Made by a program: the position numbers and the translations under genes. Below are positions 40,998 to 58,664 of a stretch of 64,000 nt of DNA, piece after piece. This stretch comes from Ornithinibacillus caprae (GTDB lineage Bacteria > Bacillota > Bacilli > Bacillales > Amphibacillaceae), in assembly GCF_009728145.1 (NCBI RefSeq), contig NZ_WOCA01000002.1:62001-126000 (forward strand), given 5' to 3'. How positions within the stretch are numbered: position 1 is the stretch's first letter; the number at the start of each line of letters is the position of its first letter. The notes beneath the pieces were generated by a model. That model did not search any database, was not told the DNA's origin, and saw only the letters and a program-made list of their open reading frames with translations.

Positions 40998-41301
40998 TTT
41001 TTTATCCTACTACTGGTTTAATTGCAAAATTTGTGGAACCTTGCGGTTCATTAGTGATTTTTAGATGTGGCTTCTTACGAAGTCTATATTATAGGTGATG
41101 TCTCTTTACCTTTATCAATAGGGGCACTCGGCTATGCTGTGGGTTGAAGGACCTTAGACACCTGTTGTCATTAGTGTGGTGTGAGGTGGGGTTAGATGCC
41201 CTGTATTTTTATTACAATTTTTAAATGCACCTAGAAGGTATGACAAAAATGGCTTCATTGGAAATAAGCTATTATAACTGTTGTTTGAGGTGCTTGAGAT
41301 C
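40998..41301 (+). other. gene-free stretch with possible RNA structure
   Basis: No credible ORF. A hairpin gaacc-ttgc-ggttc lies near 41038-41051, related to the one before galU. Further on, aggtg(at)gtct at about 41093-41102 can pair with agacacct (about 41157-41164), enclosing some 55 nt of mostly G-rich sequence. This could be a structured leader for the prepilin-like gene that follows. I do not recognise a known riboswitch with confidence. Confidence 0.3.
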
Positions 41302-53493: not shown

Positions 53494-54156
53494 ATGAAAA
53501 TTACAATCGCTGGAACAGGTTATGTAGGCTTATCAAATGCTATATTACTGGCTCAACACAACGAGGTAATTGCGTTAGATATTATTCAAGAAAAAGTAGA
53601 TATGATTAATAATAAAAGATCTCCGATTATTGATAATGAGGAGGTAAGAGGATTAGACAGTTAGCAAATTATTGATGGTGTAGGTCTGGATCCGCGAATT
53701 GGTAATCATTATAATAATCCTTCCTTTGGCTATGGTGGATACTGTTGTCTGCCTAAAGATACAAAACAGCTATTAGCTAATTATGAAGATGTTCCAAATA
53801 ATATAATGACAGCTATTGTAGATGCAAACAGAACAAGAAAAGATCATGTTGCCGAAATGATTATTAAGAAGAATCCAAAAATAGTTGGCATCTATAGGCT
53901 TACAATGAAAATGGACTCAGACAACTTTAGACAATCAGCTATTCAAGGTGTCACGAAGCGAATTAAAGCTAATGGTATTGAAGTTGTTGTATATGAACCT
54001 GCCCTTCATGAAGAGACATTCTATAATTCAAGAGTAATAAATGACTTTGAAGAATTTAAGAGGGTTTCAAATGTAATTGTTACAAATCGATTGTCTGATG
54101 ATTTACGTGATGTAAAGGACAAGGTATATACAAGGGATTTGTTTAGTAGAGATTAA
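53494..54156 (+). pseudogene. UDP-glucose 6-dehydrogenase, internally deleted
   Basis: The first 54 codons encode an intact N-terminus ([21 protein letters not shown], then [12 protein letters not shown]). A TAG stop at 53662 follows. The frame then continues with [22 protein letters not shown], the catalytic-cysteine region, through to a normal C-terminus ending DLFSRD. About 150-170 codons between them, covering the rest of the NAD domain, are missing. Both parts are in one frame. The enzyme would have supplied UDP-glucuronate and cannot be functional here. Confidence 0.88.
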
Positions 54157-54179: not shown

Positions 54180-54985
54180 GAACTGCCCCCTGTCAAGTTT
54201 GAAGGGCCATAAATGATTCTTGTTCTAGTCGATCTCTTCCTTGCATAATTCTTTCATCAGCTGTTTTTAAATTATCAAAAAGACCTTCGGTTGGAACTCC
54301 TCCAAAAACTCAAACACATGAACAAAACAATCTAAAAAAGCCTCTTGTTTCTCATGTAGGTAGGCTCTTACAAATTGAACACGACTTGCAGAAAGCTGAA
54401 TACAAAAGAGGAAAACACTCTTCGTTCAACCCTGTAGAATAATATCCGCCTCTCCCCAGTCGAATTGGAATTTGTGGCCAAGTTGAAAATCAAGAGGAAT
54501 GAAGACTTCCTGTAGTTTTTTCTTACGTTTAGCTACAACCTTACGTATATTGGATTCAGATCCTTTGAAATTATATTCATCTATTAATCATTTATAGATT
54601 CTAGCAGCTGTATGTTTTTGTTTTCCCCAACGCTTGAGATCGTCCTCATGCCATTGATCAATAATCGGTAAAACACGCTTAGTCTCGTCAGAGTACTCCT
54701 TACCACTATATGTATATGTACGATTTACAGTAGTTGAAGCTTCATTTTGTTTAATATATTTGCTTACAGTATTTCTAGAGATTCCAAGTTTTTTAGCTAT
54801 TTGCCTTTGGGGTAGTCCTTCAACCTCCTTCAAGAATTTGATATGATGGTATTGAGCCATATTGATCATCCTTTTTTATCCTCTCTCATTGATAGTTTGG
54901 TCACTTTCAATAATAAGAGAGGTTATTAAATTTGGGAATTCAGTGTCTCATTTTTTATATGATCGAAGTCCTTAAAAGTGGCTCA
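54180..54985 (-). mobile_element. remnant of an IS21-family insertion sequence
   Basis: The stretch contains a decayed istA on the minus strand. At its upstream end are two copies of GTG(T/G)CTCATTTTTT (54943-54956 and 54978-54992), like the multiple terminal repeats of IS21 elements. No istB is present and the 3' part of istA is missing, so the element is inactive. Its left boundary near 54180-54210 is unclear. Confidence 0.7.
54208..54869 (-). pseudogene. istA transposase remnant (IS21 family)
   Basis: The minus strand begins with a typical IstA HTH (HHIKFLKEVEGLPQRQIAKKLGISRNTVSKYIK). After TAARIYK an in-frame TGA (54585-54587) replaces an expected codon, and the same frame resumes with EYNFKGSESNIRKV...FQFDWGEADIILQG. 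It then hits another stop and continues in shifted frames (a LFDNLKTA-like block, then GRDRLEQESFMALQT). There are several disablements and the C-terminal integrase part is lost. Confidence 0.8.
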
Positions 54986-54987
54986 TT

Positions 54988-55109
54988 TTTTTCAAAAGCA
55001 GATTCCCCAGTATAATCTTTTGTCAAATTAGTAAAATATTCAGGATTCACCTCTAGTGCTTCTGATAAAGCAAAAATTTTATCATATGGAATATTTTTGA
55101 TACCCCCCC
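54988..55109 (-). pseudogene. fragment of an XRE-type regulator, cut by the IS21 end
   Basis: Minus-strand translation gives KNIPYDKIFALSEALEVNPEYF and then TNLTKDYTG, the C-terminal half of a Cro/CI-type HTH domain. Upstream it runs into a tract of ten C residues (55103-55112 on the plus strand) and loses homology. Downstream it is truncated by the IS21 terminal repeat. It is not functional. Confidence 0.6.
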
Positions 55110-55210
55110 CCCGTTTCATTATTGGAAAGGTAGCAAAGAATGTATCTGAGAATATAAAACTCTACTCTTTCTACCATTGAATTTACTTTTGTTAAATCGA
55201 ATCTAATTAT

Positions 55211-55239
55211 TTGAAATTAATTACAATTATTTGTATAAT
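55211..55239 (+). promoter_or_regulatory. promoter of the noncoding leader of the reverse transcriptase locus
   Basis: TTGAAA (55211-55216), a 17-nt spacer and TATAAT (55234-55239) form a strong SigA promoter in an otherwise AT-rich gap. Transcription would start at about 55246, some 275 nt before the reverse transcriptase start codon, giving a long untranslated RNA. Confidence 0.78.
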
Positions 55240-55245
55240 TAATTT

Positions 55246-55505
55246 AATTCAACATTGTTGAAGGTGTCTTGCAAAAATGGTTGCAAGAGAGATAAGTTTC
55301 AACTTGTCAAGCCCTTGATAATAATCAAGCTGAACAAGGTACCAGACCAGAATCAACAATTCCATGATACACATACAACAAGCGTCTGCTAAACTTAAAC
55401 TTATCACAGTTATAATCTCCTTAGTGTTATTATAATTGATTTGTTTAACGGAGTCAGTGGTCACCGGGCAATTCCACACTTCTGGAATCCCAAAAACGAA
55501 TGCTA
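55246..55505 (+). ncRNA. structured RNA upstream of the reverse transcriptase, probable reverse-transcription template
   Basis: The RNA would begin with a hairpin (55248-55253 with 55257-55262) and a perfect 8-bp stem (tcttgcaa 55267-55274 with ttgcaaga 55281-55288). Next comes gataagttt (55291-55299), which pairs perfectly with aaacttatc (55397-55405). A cttgat/atcaag hairpin lies at 55314-55329, and attcca/tggaat closes the 3' side (55471-55476 with 55483-55488). The plus strand has no credible ORF here. Leaders of this size and position are the template RNAs in DRT2 systems. The 3' end is uncertain. Confidence 0.68.
55291..55440 (-). other. predicted endless (neo-type) ORF template, 147-nt unit
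   Basis: On the minus strand 55440-55291 reads as 50 codons without a stop, from ATC (55440-55438) to ATC (55293-55291). Joining these two ATC codons gives a circular 147-nt, 49-codon unit that stays in frame forever; the other two minus-strand frames stop within it. The junction places TTGACA (55310-55305) exactly 17 nt before TATAAT (55434-55429). AAGGAG (55422-55417) and a GTG start (55407-55405) follow. The encoded repeat is mostly hydrophobic and helix-prone (IMELLILVWYLVQL). This is a prediction, not a genomic CDS. Confidence 0.6.
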
Positions 55506-55519
55506 GGAGGTTTTCTGTT

Positions 55520-56905
55520 ATGGAACAGAGTAATAGGCCACAACAATTACATAACCTCCCTAGCTCTTCGGTAATTGATTGGTCTAAGTATGAACCTAAA
55601 TTTTATTTGCATCTTGATGACCGTGTACATATAGAGCATGTAAAAAGTAAAATCCAGGATCCGAACTGGGTTTCTTCACATGCTTTTTTCCCTTCTATTC
55701 ACTTTAATATAACTTTCAATAAGTATGTTACGACCTCAAATGACAAGAAATTACCAAAAGAACAACGTAAACAAAAAAAGAAAAAAGTGAGAGAAATTTA
55801 TTATGCTGCACATAAAGATAGATTTATATATAAATACTATGGCGACATTTTAAATTCTTCTTACAATGAATATGCCCAAAATAATGGTATTAATGAAATT
55901 GCTATAGCATATCGAAATAACAAATCTGGTAGAAATAACATAGATTTTGCTTATGAAGTATTTGATTTTCTCCTTAGTCAGAATCAAGCAATAGTCATTT
56001 CTATCGATTTTACAAGTTTCTTTGATTATATTGATCATCGAAATCTTAAGCAGAATATTAAGTCGGTCTTAGGAGTAAAAGAATTACCAACAGATTGGTA
56101 TAAAGTTTTTAAGAATTTAACACAGTTTACTTATGTAAATAAGTCTGATATAGATGAATTTTTAAAGAATAAGTATGGTGTGAAGAAACTAAAAAAGCTT
56201 ATCAAAACCCAAAAATTAACTAAAATTATGAGCCCAAAAGAGTTTCGATCCTTTAAGAAGGAGCATTTGTATAAAAATAAAAAAACATATGGAATACCCC
56301 AAGGGTCAGGAATGAGTGCGGTCTGTTCGAATGTACATCTGATTCATTTTGATCAAGAAATGATTAAATGGGCATCAGAGTATAATGCTTTATATCGTAG
56401 ATACTGTGATGATTTAATATTAGTCATTCCAGTAGATAGAGCAAACACACAGAAAGTAGAGCTACTAAAAGAAGAAGTAATTCAAATTATCAATAGTTAT
56501 CAATCGCACGGTTTAAAGATTCAAGAGGAAAAAACAGAAATACGTTTGTATTCTGAAGGAAAAGTTTTTGATGAAAATCAATTACAAAGTACCCTTGATT
56601 ATTTAGGATTTGTTACCGATGGACATACAATTAAAATACGAGAGAAGAGTCTCTTTAAATACTATTCTAGAGCATATAGGAAAGCGAACACTAGTAAAAG
56701 AACTGCATATGTAACAAAACGAAAAGGTCCTAGAAAAAAATTGTATAAAATATACTCTCATTTGGGTTTTAATTATAAGGGAAGGGGAAACTTTATTACA
56801 TATGCTTATAGAGCACATGATAAAATGAAGAATTTGAAGGCGAAAAGTATTATTCGAAATCAGGTTAAAAGACATTGGAATAAGATTCATAGGCGGTTGG
56901 AGTAG
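55520..56905 (+). CDS. defence-type reverse transcriptase (probable DRT2)
   Basis: A 461-residue reverse transcriptase without maturase or endonuclease domains. Motif A is SIDFTSFFDYIDH (D163), motif B GIPQGSGMSA (258-267), motif C YCDD (295-298), motif D includes EEKTE, and motif E is LDYLGF. The first 100 residues carry an REIYYAAHKDRFIYKYYG segment seen in unknown-group defence RTs, and the C-terminal 90 residues are very basic. ATG 55520 has GGAGG 9 nt upstream. Its noncoding leader and lone-gene organisation fit DRT2 rather than a retron or group II intron. Subfamily assignment is from memory. Confidence 0.8.
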   Translation: MEQSNRPQQLHNLPSSSVIDWSKYEPKFYLHLDDRVHIEHVKSKIQDPNWVSSHAFFPSIHFNITFNKYVTTSNDKKLPKEQRKQKKKKVREIYYAAHKDRFIYKYYGDILNSSYNEYAQNNGINEIAIAYRNNKSGRNNIDFAYEVFDFLLSQNQAIVISIDFTSFFDYIDHRNLKQNIKSVLGVKELPTDWYKVFKNLTQFTYVNKSDIDEFLKNKYGVKKLKKLIKTQKLTKIMSPKEFRSFKKEHLYKNKKTYGIPQGSGMSAVCSNVHLIHFDQEMIKWASEYNALYRRYCDDLILVIPVDRANTQKVELLKEEVIQIINSYQSHGLKIQEEKTEIRLYSEGKVFDENQLQSTLDYLGFVTDGHTIKIREKSLFKYYSRAYRKANTSKRTAYVTKRKGPRKKLYKIYSHLGFNYKGRGNFITYAYRAHDKMKNLKAKSIIRNQVKRHWNKIHRRLE

Positions 56906-56926
56906 ATTTGAATTAAATGGCATTTT

Positions 56927-56961
56927 GGAAGCATGGGGACGGTTCTCACGCTTCCTTTTTA
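56927..56961 (+). terminator. terminator of the reverse transcriptase gene
   Basis: ggaagcatg (56927-56935) pairs with cacgcttcc (56947-56955), one mismatch, followed by TTTTT. The loop carries ggggacggttct. Confidence 0.8.
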
Positions 56962-57200
56962 CATTAAATACCAAGTTTTGCTTGCTCAGGATATGAGTGC
57001 TCTATGTCTCAGTTTCCCTTAATTAAATCGTATGTATAACCTCAAGAGGATATTTGCTCAGAATATAACTTCCATGGGTTATTATGTACTTGTTAAAGCG
57101 GATGAAATTTTTGATAGAATAGAAGAGAGGAGTGTTGGTGCAATGACGTATTAGACTATGGATGGAACTCAACCTGAGATGTTGGGTTCTTTTTTGTCTG
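56962..57200 (+). other. gene-free stretch with a vestigial expression signal and terminator
   Basis: No credible protein gene. GAGAGGAGTG with ATG 57143 opens a three-codon frame (ATG ACG TAT TAG). Just after it, gaactcaac (57165-57173) pairs with gttgggttc (57181-57189), followed by six T residues, a good terminator. It looks like the two ends of a lost small gene or a leader-peptide attenuator without its operon. Confidence 0.45.
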
Positions 57201-57233
57201 TCTTTTTATGGTAGAACCCCTTGAATTTAACAA

Positions 57234-57270
57234 AAACACCTCCAACAGATAATTTCGGCTGGAGGTGTTT
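57234..57270 (-). terminator. terminator of the amidase gene
   Basis: A perfect 11-bp stem (57234-57244 with 57260-57270), with a T-rich tail on the minus-strand side (tttttgttaaattc). It lies 18 nt past the amidase stop. Confidence 0.85.
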
Positions 57271-57287
57271 CTTAAAAAATACTTATT

Positions 57288-58664
57288 TTATAAAGCATTA
57301 TCAATAAGGTAAGCTGATTGATAAAGCATTTCTTCCTGGTTGCAGCCACCTATGAGCTGCATCCCAATCGGTAATCCTTCTGTTGATTTACCACACGGGA
57401 TACTAATACTTGGAACTCCGATATAATTCGAAATAAAGGTAAGTCGCATTAACGCTTGACGTACATTATGTGTCTTCCCATGAATATGAACGGTTTCTTG
57501 ACCAAATTCTGGTGGCAGGATAGGGATGGTTGGTGTTAGTAACACATTCACATCTTGAAATGCCTTTTCAAAAGTCTTAGATAGTTTTACTTTTAACTCT
57601 TGTGCGAGCAAGAATTCATAGGCCTTATATTTTGCCCCGATTAGGATTCTTTTCCTAGTTTCTTCACCTAAATCGTTTGAATCTTCATGAACAATTTCTC
57701 GATTAATTAAGTATGCTTCTGCTTGGTCAATCGCACTACTAATGTACATTGTTTCGTTCATATCTGGTAGATTTAAATCAACCTCAACAACAGTATAACC
57801 AAGATTTTCCAGGTGGTTCATCATTTTCATAAGGCGTGCTTCCACTTCAGGATCCAGGTCAACGTAATAGTCTGTTGGGATCCCAATTTTAAAGGAGCTT
57901 ATTTTCGGTAATATACCCGTTGCTAATTTTTTGTATATGGAGTCTGAAGTACCTAACGTCCCACAGAGTCCATCGTACAAAATGGCGTTATCTGTTACTG
58001 TTCGCGTAATTAGGCCAACATGATCCATGGTCCAGCTAAGTGGATGGATACCCTCTAAATCTAGTTTCCCATACGTTGGTTTCATTCCCACAACCCCACA
58101 AATAGATGCTGGTATCCTTATTGAGCCACTCGTGTCTGTACCAATCGAACCCCAGCATAGTTGAGCTGCAGTAGCAGCGGCAGATCCACTACTAGATCCG
58201 CCAGCTATTTTACTGGAGTCGTGTGGATTACGAGTTGGACCAAAATATGAATCATCTCCTGTGGTACCATAAGCTAATTCATGTAAATTTTGCTTTCCAA
58301 TTAGTATTGATCCCATGTTTAATAACGTCTTTACTAATGCAGCATCCTCGTTTGGAATAAAGTCTTGATACACACCTGATGCCATAGTTGTTTTGATTCC
58401 TTTAGTATGGATTAGATCTTTTAAACCGATAGGAATACCAAGTAACATGCTATTAGAATCATTGTTTTTGTATAATTTTTCTGCATGACGTGCTTGTTCC
58501 AATGCATCATCCTTACATAGGGTTATAAATGCATTAAGGTCGCGATGGTTTTCAATTCGTTTATATAATAGTTCGGTAACTTCTACAGGGGATATTGTGC
58601 GTTTCTTGTACTCCATATGAAGCTCCGCTATCCCTAAATGCAATAATTCTTGTTCGAGTTGCAT
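57288..58664 (-). CDS. amidase signature-family hydrolase
   Basis: A 458-residue amidase with the full signature: catalytic K82 in GLKDLIHTKG, GGSSSGSAAATAA (155-167, the cis-Ser region) and the nucleophile S181 in GTDTSGSIRIPAS. It resembles GatA, but no gatB or gatC is nearby, so it is a metabolic amidase. It lies 15 nt after the symporter gene on the same strand and is probably co-transcribed, suggesting that it hydrolyses the imported compound. Beyond the symporter lie an ectoine synthase and an M24 hydrolase. Confidence 0.88.
   Translation of the reverse strand: MQLEQELLHLGIAELHMEYKKRTISPVEVTELLYKRIENHRDLNAFITLCKDDALEQARHAEKLYKNNDSNSMLLGIPIGLKDLIHTKGIKTTMASGVYQDFIPNEDAALVKTLLNMGSILIGKQNLHELAYGTTGDDSYFGPTRNPHDSSKIAGGSSSGSAAATAAQLCWGSIGTDTSGSIRIPASICGVVGMKPTYGKLDLEGIHPLSWTMDHVGLITRTVTDNAILYDGLCGTLGTSDSIYKKLATGILPKISSFKIGIPTDYYVDLDPEVEARLMKMMNHLENLGYTVVEVDLNLPDMNETMYISSAIDQAEAYLINREIVHEDSNDLGEETRKRILIGAKYKAYEFLLAQELKVKLSKTFEKAFQDVNVLLTPTIPILPPEFGQETVHIHGKTHNVRQALMRLTFISNYIGVPSISIPCGKSTEGLPIGMQLIGGCNQEEMLYQSAYLIDNAL

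Follow-up and report, generated by a model that had tools for sequence, protein, structure and literature searches.

Two studies published in 2024 reported that the DRT2 enzyme of Klebsiella pneumoniae (KpnDRT2) assembles a gene by copying a non-coding RNA (PMC11100668, PMC12039810). In the parts of these papers on which we draw, the template of KpnDRT2 comprises bases 29–148 of a 280-nt ncRNA, leaving a 3' domain of 132 nt, and carries TTGACA and TATAAT out of order, two elements that concatemer formation brings together at a spacing of 17 nt (PMC12039810), and one nucleotide is added per jump (PMC11100668). In the same parts, Wilkinson et al. ascribed most of the conserved residues of the product, Neo, to the ACA elements and those of the promoter, noting also its hydrophobic bias (PMC12039810), and Tang et al. 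remarked that Neo annotation is harder in divergent DRT2 clades (PMC11100668). Telomerase and DRT10, too, add repeats by letting the end of the product anneal again at another copy of a short motif in the template, a comparison drawn both by the authors of PMC12632851 and by Wilkinson et al. (PMC12039810); the repeats of telomerase and DRT10 are much shorter, and a protein-coding product is absent from the account in PMC12632851, as far as the parts used here extend. Firmicutes go unmentioned in the searched parts of PMC12596737 and PMC12632851, and no paper on a Gram-positive DRT2/Neo system was among the literature matches listed, the scope of which stopped short of subscription papers and supplements.

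We analysed a window of 64,000 nt, to whose full length all coordinates refer, and conclude that it very probably encodes an anti-phage DRT2 system of a Bacillota clade, which makes 147-nt tandem cDNA by way of the motif GTTT and thereby encodes an endless Neo protein. The enzyme is encoded as follows.

55520–56905, plus strand: DRT2 reverse transcriptase (RT) of 461 residues with an intact YCDD active site, from profile and structure-chain matches

The RT belongs to the DRT2 (UG2) family. It matches RVT_1 of Pfam and scores 475 bits against PADLOC Drt2 (E 8.7e-143), with a further Drt2 match at 310 bits and the next family at 66, and its best PDB matches are DRT2 chains (E 5.6e-54), the match starting only at RT residue 21. 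Its score of 367 bits against the NCBIfam model NF041746 (Drt2) misses the cut-off of 390, and we therefore count it as a divergent member of the family. The catalytic residues are intact, and Y295, D297, D298 and D163 are invariant across 13 aligned RT sequences; we take the aspartates to be those of the YxDD motif and the motif A Asp. The RT is the sole match of its kind in its own genome (E 0.001). That it might act like DRT9 or DRT10 on a short or homopolymeric template, with the long unit described below not being the product, has next to no probability in our estimation. DRT9 and DRT10 are likewise class 2 RTs with an ncRNA, and UG17 is DRT10 (both from the consulted parts of PMC12632851), but the RT scores only 62 bits against PADLOC RT_UG17, compared with its 475 as Drt2, and the handle, template edges and junction promoter are arranged as in DRT2.

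The template and the elements encoded on its opposite strand lie upstream of the RT gene.

55296–55299, plus strand: 5' jump motif GTTT, the predicted end of each cDNA round, repeated at the unit period and 9 nt 5' of the -35 element
55443–55446, plus strand: 3' jump motif GTTT, the predicted re-annealing site of the cDNA end, 147 nt from the 5' copy and conserved
55296–55442, plus strand: predicted reverse-transcription template of 147 nt, one concatemer unit, bounded by GTTT, a multiple of three, with one open minus-strand frame
55305–55310, minus strand: -35 element TTGACA of the junction promoter, by sequence and by conservation in homologues
55429–55434, minus strand: -10 element TATAAT of the junction promoter, 17 nt past TTGACA only in head-to-tail units
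55417–55422, minus strand: Shine-Dalgarno-like AAGGAG for Neo, by sequence
55405–55407, minus strand: GTG that probably starts Neo, 9 nt past AAGGAG and in frame with the open reading

Like KpnDRT2/Neo as described in the parts consulted, the window has a DRT2 RT, a predicted ncRNA upstream of the gene that comprises a 5' handle, a template and a 3' domain, a unit that is a multiple of three, a cDNA-strand frame without stops across the junction, and a hydrophobic Neo. Two hallmarks of DRT2/Neo, the stop-less multiple-of-three unit and the junction promoter with a 17-nt spacer, are thus present, and a third, a structured upstream ncRNA carrying a 5' handle and template, is predicted from the sequence. 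Where KpnDRT2 has ACA edges and a 120-nt unit in those accounts, the window has GTTT and 147 nt. The ACA-1/ACA-2 arrangement of the Klebsiella-type subgroup was not found, none of the ACA pairs listed being 147 nt apart; because the template edges are GTTT and not ACA, we file the locus in DRT2, outside that subgroup. The RT itself is distant: gammaproteobacterial plasmid DRT2 proteins, used in place of KpnDRT2, match it at 31–33% and fall in a separate clade.

The initial annotation of this region had started from GAT at 55291–55293 and 55438–55440, 147 nt apart, and from the minus-strand frame of the resulting concatemer. Both copies are present as claimed, the concatemer has one stop-free frame of 49 codons and many stops in the other two, and the peptide quoted is correct for a GAT-to-GAT jump. 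An open frame as sole evidence was nevertheless rejected as being at chance level: in 55246–55519, 84 of 249 pairs of three-base repeats lying 90–200 nt apart yield a concatemer that is free of stops and has a unit divisible by three; when 200 stretches of 274 nt were drawn at random from the window, 191 contained one or more pairs of this kind, with a mean of 64. What lifts the open unit above chance is the perfect junction promoter, together with the conservation of the layout in homologues. Head-to-tail joining creates TTGACA-17-TATAAT on the minus strand, a 12/12 match to the sigma-A type, followed by AAGGAG and, after a further 9 nt, by a GTG that is in the open frame; a CTCC-type counterpart of AAGGAG is present, judged by eye, in many relatives. 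Among 600 random 274-nt draws, of which slightly fewer were tested because those on the locus were skipped, none combined a 12/12 junction promoter with an open multiple-of-three unit and a repeat of 4 nt; the combination was found once with at most one promoter mismatch and 26 times with at most two. The linear minus strand also bears a weaker promoter-like sequence, CTGACT-17-TATAAT (55457–55429, 10/12), which could allow leaky antisense transcription of the template without reverse transcription.

To compare homologues, we took 14 loci from the same order, the window's own included (13 of 397 genomes had a match), and 78 loci from the best 80 of 160 relatives; 81 non-redundant loci were left once 11 duplicates had been dropped, and since only these genomes were drawn, the set is a sample. 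A blind scan ranked all unit lengths by the quality of the -10 element and the length of the repeat, using no frame information. At RT identities of at least 36%, a line that we chose, there are 59 loci, 56 of them scored; the others are L049 and L067, which have short upstream DNA with no handle or -35 element, and L058, which has no -10 element. The initial annotation had suggested examining homologues for a multiple-of-three unit with an open minus-strand frame, and this frame-blind version came out in its favour: the top unit is a multiple of three in 45 of the 56 scored loci, all 45 being free of stops, and among the 41 loci with a score of at least 9 the agreement is 40 (the exception is L056), although these counts are not independent trials, the loci being related by descent. 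The 40 passing units have 14 different lengths, from 129 to 192. When the sequence downstream of the -35 element was shuffled, 10 of 5600 passed, and some open frame was found in 1544 of 12000 trials on shuffled templates. The score of 9 was reached by 41 loci with a spacer of 17 nt, and by 16, 7, 7, 14, 8 and 12 loci with spacers of 14, 15, 16, 18, 19 and 20 nt, respectively. Eleven of the 56 fail the blind rule, eight of which were given the unit of their clade by hand and are then open; L040 and L082 do not fit the rule, and L091, a faulty extraction whose contig starts inside the RT, was counted as a failure. Below 36% identity there are 22 loci, of which nine could be scored and six of the nine pass, one of these (L073) having a closed unit if the jump is set 9 nt from the -35 element. 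Among viral contigs, 115 stretches matched a pattern and none encoded a relative.

It could be argued that the open frame and repeat are coincidental, and that the upstream region is just a scaffold, of a regulatory kind or for an ncRNA, or else contains an unrelated antisense gene. Chance does indeed often produce an open multiple-of-three unit flanked by a 3-nt repeat, as the counts above demonstrate. A 12/12 junction promoter is not readily produced by chance, however, nor is the agreement of 40 of 41 among high-scoring homologues; coincidence would be favoured if, in most homologues from this RT clade, the unit were not a multiple of three or not open, and the opposite was found. In the linear genome the -35 and -10 elements are in the wrong order, so that a conventional antisense gene would not use the TTGACA/TATAAT pair. 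We consider this explanation very improbable. The junction promoter and the homologue scan lend strong support to the initial proposal, namely that the RNA upstream in this DRT2 locus is the template of a tandem gene without stops. Computation establishes the RT family, the repeat geometry, the promoter, the open frame, their conservation and the hydrophobic bias.

With regard to that bias, the GTTT-bounded Neo unit of the window reads INYNNTKEIITVISLSLADACCMCIMELLILVWYLVQLDYYQGLDKLKQ and has a GRAVY value of 0.59; the mean over the units of 53 loci is 0.78, compared with 0.14 (sd 0.39) for shuffled units. Pairs of Neo units that were compared had no clear excess of substitutions at third codon positions, the changes being spread over all three. 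We therefore do not use the substitution pattern as proof of coding, and it lends no support to selection at the level of residues.

In an RT tree of 81 rows, 61 cluster in a group made up mainly of Bacillota (support 100/99); gammaproteobacterial, Verrucomicrobiota, Bacteroidota and other rows fall outside it. The classes of jump motif broadly track the RT clades, with GTTT and GTAT also occurring outside their main clades. One genome (G371:C1) contains two DRT2 systems about 14 kb apart, L002 and L014, which belong to different clades and have GTTT and GTGA. We also observed a Bacillota-type DRT2 with GTTT (L021) on a Bacteroidota (Lutibacter) MAG contig, reflecting either horizontal transfer or a binning error.

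The position of the jump is where our reading departs from the initial annotation. Within the window, GTTT lies 9 nt before the -35 element and 8 nt after the -10, and in relatives it lies 9–10 nt from the -35. Among the 19 loci with RT identities of at least 50%, the window included, 15 have all 4 nt of GTTT repeated at the unit period, and the remaining four have GT. GAT was rejected as the jump motif because it is not conserved: GAT-GAT at the unit period occurs in one of these 19 loci, the window itself. In L018 (= L003), both GATs are present but lie 148 nt apart with an 18-nt spacer, so that a GAT jump would break the frame, whereas GTTT gives 147 and 17; in L018, L019 and L020 alike, GAT or GA pairs give 148 nt and GTTT gives 147 nt with a 17-nt spacer. 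The GAT at 55291 falls within a template helix (GAUAAGUUU pairs with AAACUUAUC), which can explain its frequency in close relatives. A concatemeric cDNA of the DRT2 type that jumps at GAT or elsewhere, giving another unit or Neo sequence, is in our view improbable on these counts. The window alone cannot separate the two sites, since GAT-GAT and GTTT-GTTT are both 147 nt apart; four loci of the GTTT clade (L004, L022, L023 and L024) have just GT in their 3' copy; and the one nucleotide added per jump by KpnDRT2, as given in the part of PMC11100668 consulted, means that the exact ends may be offset. With the jump moved to GTTT, the template becomes 55296–55442 and the junction reads K-Q-I in place of K-L-I. 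The 147-nt length of the Neo unit first proposed therefore stands, while its template edges and one residue do not.

GT-type motifs extend beyond the closest relatives. In the 53 loci with an assigned unit (45 from the blind scan and 8 by hand from clade position), GT is present at both ends in 47, a 3-nt match in 38 and a 4-nt match in 26. The G and T positions match at 0.91–0.92, and all shifted registers are lower; because the 5' anchor was placed on a nearby GT where one was present, it is the 3' copy that provides the actual test. The GTGA clade mostly has a GTG repeat with the same split of 9 and 8 nt. A unit set by the best TATAAT alone is 145 nt in much of that clade and fails; the conserved TATACT with the GTG repeat gives 150. 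In three clostridial loci (L063, L069 and L072), the open frame is one base off relative to the -10, compared with most loci, and the repeat is GATTG. The sequence comparison indicates that the Bacillota relatives use GT-type jump motifs, not ACA. Those with GTGA, GTAT or GTT (e.g. L005–L014, L044–L050 and L052–L057) have the handle, the 17-nt spacer and the open frame as in the window, and in most the jump motif lies 8–10 nt before the -35. They differ in having units of 129 to 189, a -10 that is often TATACT or TACAAT, and Neo sequences that, judged by eye, have little in common beyond the residues encoded by the promoter.

Control loci were examined with a slightly different scan, which had no handle requirement. 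In both E. coli drt2 loci (L096 and L097), an open unit of 117 nt ranks first, with ACA at either edge and a 17-nt spacer; ACA is the published jump motif, and the scan recovered it unprompted. These two loci share with the window an open unit, a 17-nt junction spacer and the -10 TATAAT, and differ in their ACA-ACA repeat, which sits 6 nt from the -35 (GTTT in the window, 9 nt), and, in L096, in a -35 of TGGACA. A gene annotated as a RipA family octameric membrane protein lies directly 3' of drt2 in L096. The Photobacterium locus L094 has an open top unit of 111 nt with TTGACA-17-TATAAT and a repeat of AGAT rather than ACA, and the Clostridioides phage locus L095 has an open top unit of 132 nt with GTAT. 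In the Psychrobacter locus L093, no unit was found under the first rule; under a looser rule a closed unit came out on top and an open 138-nt unit third.

The template is predicted to be part of a structured ncRNA, for which the following features were identified.

55211–55239, plus strand: predicted promoter of the ncRNA/RT transcript, TTGAAA-17-TATAAT, 11/12 consensus matches
55248–55262, plus strand: inverted repeat TTCAACATTGTTGAA in the leader, 5'-terminal in the predicted ncRNA, by sequence
55267–55288, plus strand: 5' handle hairpin of the predicted ncRNA, TCTTGCAA-loop-TTGCAAGA, from compensatory changes
55291–55299, plus strand: 5' arm GATAAGTTT of the template helix, pairing with AAACTTATC at 55397–55405 and including the GAT at 55291–55293, from the alignment

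The putative promoter is the best plus-strand match in 54900–57300; over the entire region, promoter-like sites number 10 against an expected 12.3, and so are not enriched. Several relatives have, judged by eye, similar inverted repeats at the position equivalent to that of the leader. Our analysis of stems, which was of nested stems, found that four of the eight pairs of the handle hairpin have changed on both sides with pairing kept in a 10-row alignment. The nine pairs of the template helix are formed in all 10 rows, with one-sided changes only, and so the helix has no support from covariation. As a whole, 55246–55519 folds better than 200 of 200 shuffles (z -2.69). At the gathering threshold, Rfam matched nothing at the RT locus.

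Downstream of the template, the predicted ncRNA appears to continue into the RT gene.

55443–55575, plus strand: predicted 3' scaffold of the ncRNA, extending over approximately the first 17 RT codons, with a tentative 3' end, from the KpnDRT2 analogy and synonymous constraint
55502–55512, plus strand: predicted 5' arm GCTAGGAGGTT of a stem occluding the RT ribosome-binding site (RBS), pairing with 55553–55564
55553–55564, plus strand: predicted 3' arm AACCTCCCTAGC of the same stem, in RT codons 12–15, from the alignment

When RT codons 2–17 of the window were compared with those of ten relatives, 108 of the 121 comparisons with an identical residue also had an identical codon (0.89), as against 0.43–0.61 in seven other parts of the gene. 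The RBS stem has 11 of 11 pairs in 13 of 14 alignment rows and 10 in the remaining row; only one pair has changed on both sides, so covariation is thin. Only 77 nt separate the 3' jump motif from the RT start codon in the window, and, unlike in KpnDRT2 as consulted, constrained RNA enters the RT gene. Because the 3' domain of KpnDRT2 is 132 nt (in the same parts of the source), and because the -10 lies 162–163 nt from the RT start in E. coli L096 and L097 and 86 nt from it in the window, we infer that the ncRNA enters the RT gene. In the clade of the window, therefore, the RT start codon probably falls within the ncRNA. We propose, at slightly less than even odds, that the Bacillota DRT2 systems are a neo-synthesis lineage of their own with a GT-type motif, and that in the window's clade a 3' domain holding the RBS, start and approximately 17 codons of the RT feeds back on RT translation. 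With these parts inside the 3' domain, a transcript could be template RNA or RT message, never both.

The surroundings of the locus contain several other features. Rfam matched the window only once, identifying an epsC RNA (RF01735, 105 bits, 41093–41202, plus strand), consistent with polysaccharide genes close by. That polysaccharide cluster closes with fragments of a broken gene (53494–54156, plus strand), which, judging from the gene's start, presumably encoded a UDP-glucose/nucleotide-sugar dehydrogenase. Adjoining the RT locus is an ORF of 93 residues (54588–54869, minus strand) with a helix-turn-helix at its start, which we take to be a remnant resembling an N-terminal fragment of an IS21-type transposase. 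A run of ten C residues (55103–55112) lies 5' of the ncRNA promoter and is absent from 13 other upstream stretches that were compared.

Template jumping, second-strand synthesis, transcription, translation, toxicity and defence are the steps that we infer for this system. One promoter (approximately 55211–55239) would produce a transcript that includes the RT message as well as the structured ncRNA. The RT would copy the template from 55442 back to 55296, whereupon the cDNA end (...GAAAC) would leave GTTT at 55296–55299 and re-anneal at GTTT 55443–55446 to start the next round. A GTTT jump would give the junction GAAAC|AAATCAAT, and a GAT jump would give CTTATC followed by AATTAT. Repeated rounds would yield 147-nt head-to-tail repeats, whose double-stranded junction would form the strong promoter TTGACA-17-TATAAT. 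From the GTG behind AAGGAG, the repeats would encode a stop-less hydrophobic Neo of 49 residues per unit, which, by analogy with KpnDRT2, may arrest the infected cell.

The Bacillota clades thus appear to share neo-gene synthesis with a different jump motif. The features that they have in common suggest a rule for finding hidden neo genes, namely a handle hairpin, a short edge repeat, reversed TTGACA and TATAAT elements, and a 17-nt junction spacer; because this rule needs no reading frame, the open frame provides an independent check. Junctions, unit lengths and Neo sequences become testable for the 40 loci that passed the blind scan at a high score. If the proposed overlap with the RT gene is true, folding of the ncRNA or binding of the RT would shut off RT translation, constituting a built-in feedback loop; such a loop was not found described in the parts of the DRT2 papers that we consulted. 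Copied round and round, the template would give rise to a promoter and an endless gene, neither of which the chromosome contains.
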